Origin: Candidatus Iainarchaeum sp.
Lineage (GTDB): Archaea; Micrarchaeota; Micrarchaeia; Anstonellales; Bilamarchaeaceae
Assembly: GCA_028713495.1 (NCBI GenBank)
Contig: JAQTOF010000005.1
Coordinates: 1 to 35,004, forward strand
Length of the DNA stretch: 35,004 nucleotides
Direction: 5' to 3'
Numbering within the stretch: position 1 is the stretch's first letter; the number at the start of each line of letters is the position of its first letter. Shown one piece after another: positions 3,049 to 3,487 of the stretch. The notes beneath the pieces are model-generated. The model was not told where the DNA came from. It searched no databases and saw nothing but the letters and a program-made list of their open reading frames with translations. A program made the position numbers and the translations under genes.

Positions 3049-3332
3049 TGGTGGACGCTATGGACAAACTCTCAGAGATCATACGGATGCTTTCAAGCAA
3101 GAGCGTCGTTGAGCGGAAAAAAGCCATAAAAGAGCTCAAGAAACATATCCATGGCCAGCACAGCAATGTTGCTCGCCTCTCGCTCCACTACGTATCTGAG
3201 CACGATCCTTCCTACACCGTCCGCAATATCGCGAGGCAGGCTTTCTACACGGCAGGCATAAGCCCGCCGCAGAGCGGCGGATGGGAGCGAGTCTTCGTCT
3301 TCGACCAGGGCAACGACAACGATAAGGTATAA
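3045..3332 (+). CDS. Small HEAT-repeat-like protein
   Basis: 95-aa ORF overlapping the upstream stop (GTGATG); MDKLSEIIRMLSSKSVVERKKAIKELKKHIHGQHSNVARLSLHYVSEHDPSYTVRNIARQAFYTAG resembles a HEAT/armadillo unit. Confidence 0.65.
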   Translation: MMVDAMDKLSEIIRMLSSKSVVERKKAIKELKKHIHGQHSNVARLSLHYVSEHDPSYTVRNIARQAFYTAGISPPQSGGWERVFVFDQGNDNDKV

Positions 3333-3360
3333 AATCCGTTGCTGCAACAAAAAGCTGCAA

Positions 3361-3487
3361 GGGCCCGTAGTCGACATCGCTTTTTAGTAAAAAGCTCGGC
3401 AAAAACCGGGTTGCTAATCGCGACGATTTTGGTTAAGACGCCTGCTTGACATGCAGGAGATACGCGGTTCGATTCCGCGCGGGCCCA
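3361..3487 (+). tRNA. tRNA-Val (anticodon GAC) containing a putative noncanonical intron in the D-loop (about 3376..3429)
   Basis: Acceptor GGGCCCG/CGGGCCC plus discriminator A; anticodon arm CCTGC-TTGACAT-GCAGG; variable AGATA; T-arm CGCGG-TTCGATT-CCGCG; D-stem GTC...GAC interrupted by about 54 nt; TATA-like gtataaaat about 27 nt upstream. Confidence 0.9.

Follow-up and report, generated by a model that had tools for sequence, protein, structure and literature searches.

Transposition of tRNA introns has been described in the Thermoproteales, where, as summarised by the papers that cite this work, similar introns occur in many tRNAs (Fujishima 2010, via PMC4090602 and PMC4033280). The mechanism by which archaeal tRNA introns spread has been called unknown (PMC4090602). 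According to PMC6379350 and PMC4033280, the epsilon2 splicing endonuclease cuts relaxed motifs, which may lie at various positions of the tRNA.

The tRNA-Val(GAC) gene studied here belongs to the genome of Candidatus Iainarchaeum sp. (a 1.02-Mb draft, 90% complete) and lies in a 35,004-nt stretch of DNA that is called the window below. By CTP synthase, the closest named relatives of this genome are Candidatus Micrarchaeota and Ca. ainarchaeum. The gene occupies positions 3361–3487 of the forward strand. Each of the elements described for it in the original prediction was found in place, namely the acceptor stem GGGCCCG/CGGGCCC, the anticodon arm CCTGC-TTGACAT-GCAGG and the T arm CGCGG-TTCGATT-CCGCG. 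The interruption of the D-arm by an insert at 3376–3429 was confirmed by reading the sequence. The gene and its splice site consist of the following features:

3328–3335, forward strand: probable TATA box TATAAAAT, read directly, 26–33 nt before the tRNA gene
3361–3375, forward strand: 5′ exon, GGGCCCGTAGTCGAC, the same junction half as in the intron-less genes of G007 and G016
3376–3429, forward strand: 54-nt D-loop intron, assigned by homology, splice trials and bulge-helix-bulge (BHB) fit
3430–3487, forward strand: 3′ exon with anticodon GAC, T arm and discriminator A
3370–3380, forward strand: 5′ side of the BHB, with GTCG, bulge AC^A and TCGC
3420–3430, forward strand: 3′ side of the BHB, with GCGA, CGAT and bulge TT^T

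The ORF before the tRNA gene has a stop codon that overlaps the probable TATA box, and the distance of this box from the tRNA is consistent with archaeal promoters. ARAGORN reports no tRNA at the locus when its intron option is off and miscalls it as Gln(ttg) when the option is on; all 16 of 16 spliced variants of the locus are named tRNA-Val(gac) by the program. RF00005 matches only the 3′ part of the locus, with 25.7 bits. The Rfam search matched nothing but tRNA and, weakly, a single fragment of tmRNA. A group I or group II intron, or another known RNA family, was rejected as an identity for the insert, since no Rfam match of that kind was obtained.

Removal of the 54-nt insert at AC^A and TT^T restores a tRNA-Val(gac) of 73 nt, as had been foreseen. 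This is also the length of the intron-less gene of a relative (L040) and of the Val(TAC) and Val(CAC) genes of the same genome, both of which are uninterrupted. In the intron-less congeners G007 and G016, GTAGTCGAC is joined directly to TGGTTAAGACG, which is exactly the junction that the 54-nt splice predicts, and their uninterrupted D-loop, GTAGTCGACTGGTTAAGACG, is letter-identical to the product without 3376–3429. The original prediction had left the splice points ambiguous between 52 and 54 nt; the junctions of the relatives settle on 54 nt and disfavour the 52-nt splice. The splice sites fold as GTCG AC^A TCGC ... GCGA CGAT TT^T. The BHB-like fold that had been proposed was recovered with four of four pairs in the central helix GTCG/CGAT (one of them G-U), four of four in the inner helix TCGC/GCGA, and the bulges ACA and TTT; the outer helix is weak, as had been suspected, with two of four positions paired. 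Compared with dinucleotide-shuffled versions of the intron, the BHB fit has p = 0.003. The restored 73-nt tRNA, the congener junctions and the BHB support the assignment as a noncanonical D-loop tRNA intron, and we infer from the sequence that the insert is spliced out of the precursor. The locus could also be a pseudogene, the true tRNA-Val(GAC) lying in the ~10% of the genome that the assembly lacks. The 90% completeness of the assembly leaves room for such a gene, but the exons show perfect complementarity, the BHB and the TATA box are in place, and the gene is split at the same site in G010 and G029, so that a pseudogene is very improbable. A second, intron-free tRNA-Val(GAC), the search for which had been suggested as a check, was not found in the ~90% complete assembly.

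The broad-specificity epsilon endonuclease guessed at in the original prediction is encoded in the genome as a 403-aa protein, collinear with the ARMAN-2 enzyme 4fz2 over residues 16–403 (E = 2.4e-131). The genome also encodes a second endonuclease-like protein of 165 aa that consists of the catalytic domain alone (L037:1459-1956, contig C37). RtcB and archease are both encoded. At a BHB whose outer helix is relaxed, the epsilon-type endonuclease would cut the Val precursor; RtcB with archease would then join the exons.

The Val intron is one copy of a polar repeat of ~50 nt, whose unit runs from a variable end through a TARCA-like box and GTTTTxGG to a hairpin. The part of the repeat family present in the window comprises:

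3376–3423, reverse strand: repeat copy (model R1), reversed relative to the tRNA
3379–3395, no strand assigned: family hairpin GC-TTTTT-AGT-AAAAA-GC, on the side of the 5′ exon
3400–3407, reverse strand: conserved family box GGTTTTTG, which reads CAAAAACC on the forward strand

In the hairpin TTTT/AAAA is nearly invariant and the lower stem covaries. Across 121 distinct copies 98.6% of the cells are paired and six of the nine pairs are changed on both sides; the paired cells together with the covariation score were matched by none of 500 shuffles. The repeat was searched for with covariance models built from nine copies (A1, R1). Because the Val copy belonged to the training set of R1, its score with that model is not independent of the training; the two-strand comparison of introns and the half-profile test are independent. 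In the two-strand comparison the Val insert resembles the introns of Lys(TTT), Lys(CTT) and Ile(GAT) strongly, and that of Arg(TCT) weakly, as the reverse complement only. The scores of the reverse complement against the forward strand are 30 versus 14 for Lys(TTT), 38 versus 18 for Lys(CTT), 39 versus 20 for Ile(GAT) and 19 versus 12 for Arg(TCT), with shuffle p ≤ 0.001 for the first three and 0.03 for the last. A profile of the non-hairpin half, made from six forward copies, gives p = 3e-5 for the Val reverse complement; applied to the reversed copies, it gives p < 0.01 against genome windows for eight of nine, Val being among the best. The likeness between forward and reversed copies is not a palindrome artefact, because the non-hairpin halves match.

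At E < 0.1 the covariance model finds 23 copies in the source genome, 22 of which lie in or near tRNA genes: 16 are introns in anticodon, D or T arms, five abut a tRNA end and one lies ~56 bp away. The tRNA genes with 60-nt margins make up an estimated ~1% of the genome, and 22 of 23 is therefore far above chance. Relative to the tRNA, seven introns are forward and nine, including Val, are reversed; these orientation counts come from a reading of contexts, in one draft genome and samples of relatives. The tRNA-associated copies are distributed as follows:

Forward introns (n = 7): anticodon loops of Ser(GGA), Ile(GAT), Arg(TCT), Lys(CTT), Lys(TTT), Arg(CCT) and Phe
Reversed introns, anticodon loops: Asp, Glu(CTC), Cys and Arg(GCG)
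Reversed introns, T arms: Ile(TAT), Ala(CGC), Trp and Pro(GGG)
Reversed intron, D-loop: Val
Forward flanking copies: directly before Leu(CAA), Leu(GAG) and Ser(GCT), weak (E 0.05–0.09) and near-identical to one another
Reversed flanking copies: directly after Ser(GCT) and Ser(GGA)
Reversed copy 56 bp after Gly(CCC): L161:1501-1531, contig C7

The repeat after Gly(CCC) follows the letters GTCGCA, which equal the 3′ end of a Gly tRNA and are perhaps a tRNA remnant. The tRNA with anticodon UAU (Ile) has introns in both the anticodon loop and the T-loop (L152, contig C25:8298-8396), and Ser(GGA) holds a further, unrelated insert within the anticodon stem (L035/L150, contig C19). The one copy not associated with a tRNA gene lies directly before the archease gene (L169:1374-1424, contig C56). 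Archease is a tRNA-splicing ligase cofactor; the repeat before its gene comes after a stretch with ATGA and CTGA boxes like those of a C/D sRNA. Eight tRNA genes of this genome were recovered only via the repeat.

The repeat is present at E ≤ 0.1 in 16 of the 17 genomes of the genus; G014, G010 and G009 are rich in copies, and G003, G007 and G016 are poor in them. Outside the genus it occurs in two genomes of genus g2, as two copies in G031 and as a few copies in two more distant genomes; in G184, from a different family of the class, two near-identical copies stand directly after Ser/Leu-like tRNA genes (L264, L265). Comparison of orthologues or near-orthologues of the Val gene within the genus showed that its D-loop site is empty in G002, G007, G009, G015 and G016, filled in G010 and G029 (L052) with a copy of the repeat, and occupied by a 28-nt remnant in G005. 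In G009, 24 of 26 copies lie in or abut tRNA genes. Copies of relatives outside tRNA genes were found in G009 C10, in G029 C76 and, in G009, between the aIF2-beta stop codon and aIF1A (L248:1501-1547, genes identified by eye). Several congeners, above all G014 and also G010, G015 and G009, contain inverted pairs within one intron that resemble terminal inverted repeats, such as a MITE-like DNA element would have, while the Val copy is solo. In G014 and G009, an extra hairpin with a loop of TTCG type (e.g., CTCCTTCGGAG) often separates the two units of a paired intron.

We consider it likely that the Val insert is a 54-nt tRNA intron spliced by the epsilon enzyme and by origin a reversed copy of a tRNA-specialised repeat, spread most probably as DNA. 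Copies would spread by cut-and-paste, copy or templated recombination and would insert into anticodon, D or T arms or at tRNA ends, solo or as inverted pairs. Each copy would be tolerable because a cleavable BHB arises when its far end, or its constant hairpin end, pairs with the exon. Reversed introns have the constant hairpin end at the 5′ splice site, and the tetranucleotide that pairs with the exon comes from their far end; such tetranucleotides are CTGT/ACAG in Asp, GTTC/GAAC in Ile(TAT), TGCG/CGTA in Ala and GTCG/CGAT in Val. In forward introns the constant end lies at the 3′ splice site, and the motif that they fit is more relaxed. Both orientations fit the BHB or the relaxed motif and are therefore possible substrates of a broad-specificity enzyme; the fit to the BHB is poorer for the forward copies, whose exact cleavage is accordingly less certain.

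The mixture of orientations, the inverted pairs and the copies beyond the tRNA body argue for spread as DNA, as reverse splicing would keep the sense strand. In such an RNA-level route, excised introns would be reverse-spliced into other tRNAs, copied into DNA and recombined with their orientation kept. It would accord with the similar introns reported across many tRNAs of Thermoproteales, as cited in PMC4090602 and PMC4033280, and with the fact that every site here can form a BHB or comes close to doing so. However, seven introns are opposed to nine, both orientations occurring at 37/38; copies also abut tRNA ends; and no reverse transcriptase was found in this genome or in G009, G010 and G014. 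This route thus appears improbable. We give equally little weight to immobile repeats, in which the hairpin and the GTTTT box serve RNA processing as signals at exon borders, having arisen there or being maintained by selection, in forward orientation ahead of the start of an exon and in reverse behind its end. The covarying stems would suit such signals, as would the hairpin side, which faces the tRNA in 10 of 10 inspected copies abutting a tRNA end. But the sense and antisense RNAs differ (GUUUUGG versus CCAAAAC, CCU versus AGG), and a single RNA-binding factor should not require both; moreover, the empty sites in close relatives show such a signal to be dispensable.

A real rival for the solo copies is the decay of inverted pairs, the solo reversed introns being halves of former pairs and inverted insertion never having happened. 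Relatives do hold inverted pairs at the sites of solos, e.g., in Ser(GCT) and Gly(GCC). Yet solo introns of both orientations are alike in length (45–58 nt) and have the TARCA box, which lies outside the hairpin, in common, and a pair itself requires an inverted duplication at the DNA level. We regard this explanation as unlikely, though clearly less so than the two preceding ones. DNA-level spread is suggested as the simplest account of both orientations, the inverted pairs and the copies outside the tRNA body, and the mobility of the repeat is inferred from the same comparisons. No mobilising enzyme for the repeat was found, and no target-site duplication is evident at the Val site. A Y1 transposase (PF01797) is absent from this genome, G009 and G010. 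A Y1 transposase or a reverse transcriptase was rejected as the mover, being absent here and showing no correlation with copy number; a viral source was likewise rejected, two 29-nt exact patterns of the family having no match in viral contigs.

The family shares with the Thermoproteales introns their occurrence in many different tRNAs, at the canonical and other positions, and BHB splicing; it differs from them, as the citing papers describe them, in consisting of one hairpin-bearing repeat that takes either orientation, forms inverted pairs and also stands at tRNA ends. ARMAN-2 (Ca. Micrarchaeum; epsilon2, PDB 4fz2) is similar in phylum, endonuclease type and the presence of multiple non-canonical introns (PMC12397907, PMC6379350), but the ARMAN-2 literature found describes no repeat family as the intron source (PMC12397907, PMC6379350). 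Eukaryotic introners are also intron-making repeats, some with terminal inverted repeats, for which insertion in either orientation has been considered; they yield spliceosomal introns in mRNA genes (PMC9860276), whereas the introns here are ~50-nt, enzyme-spliced and located in archaeal tRNA genes. With one intron family in both orientations in a single genome and empty sites in close relatives, the question of RNA versus DNA spread is directly testable. Standard tRNA searches miss genes in genomes of this kind, as the eight recovered via the repeat illustrate. The REP/BIME elements of bacteria are short palindromic units occurring solo and in inverted pairs, extragenic and tied to RAYT genes of the Y1 type. 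The repeat resembles them in being a short palindromic unit found singly and in inverted pairs, and differs from them in residing in tRNA genes of a genome without a Y1-type gene. It may, with about even chances, be an archaeal counterpart of the introners: a DNA element specific to tRNA genes, inserted in either orientation, solo or as inverted pairs, into any arm or end, and neutralised at the RNA level by the BHB that its ends form together with the exon. Transposing tRNA introns were already known; the two orientations and the inverted pairs seen here suggest spread at the DNA level.
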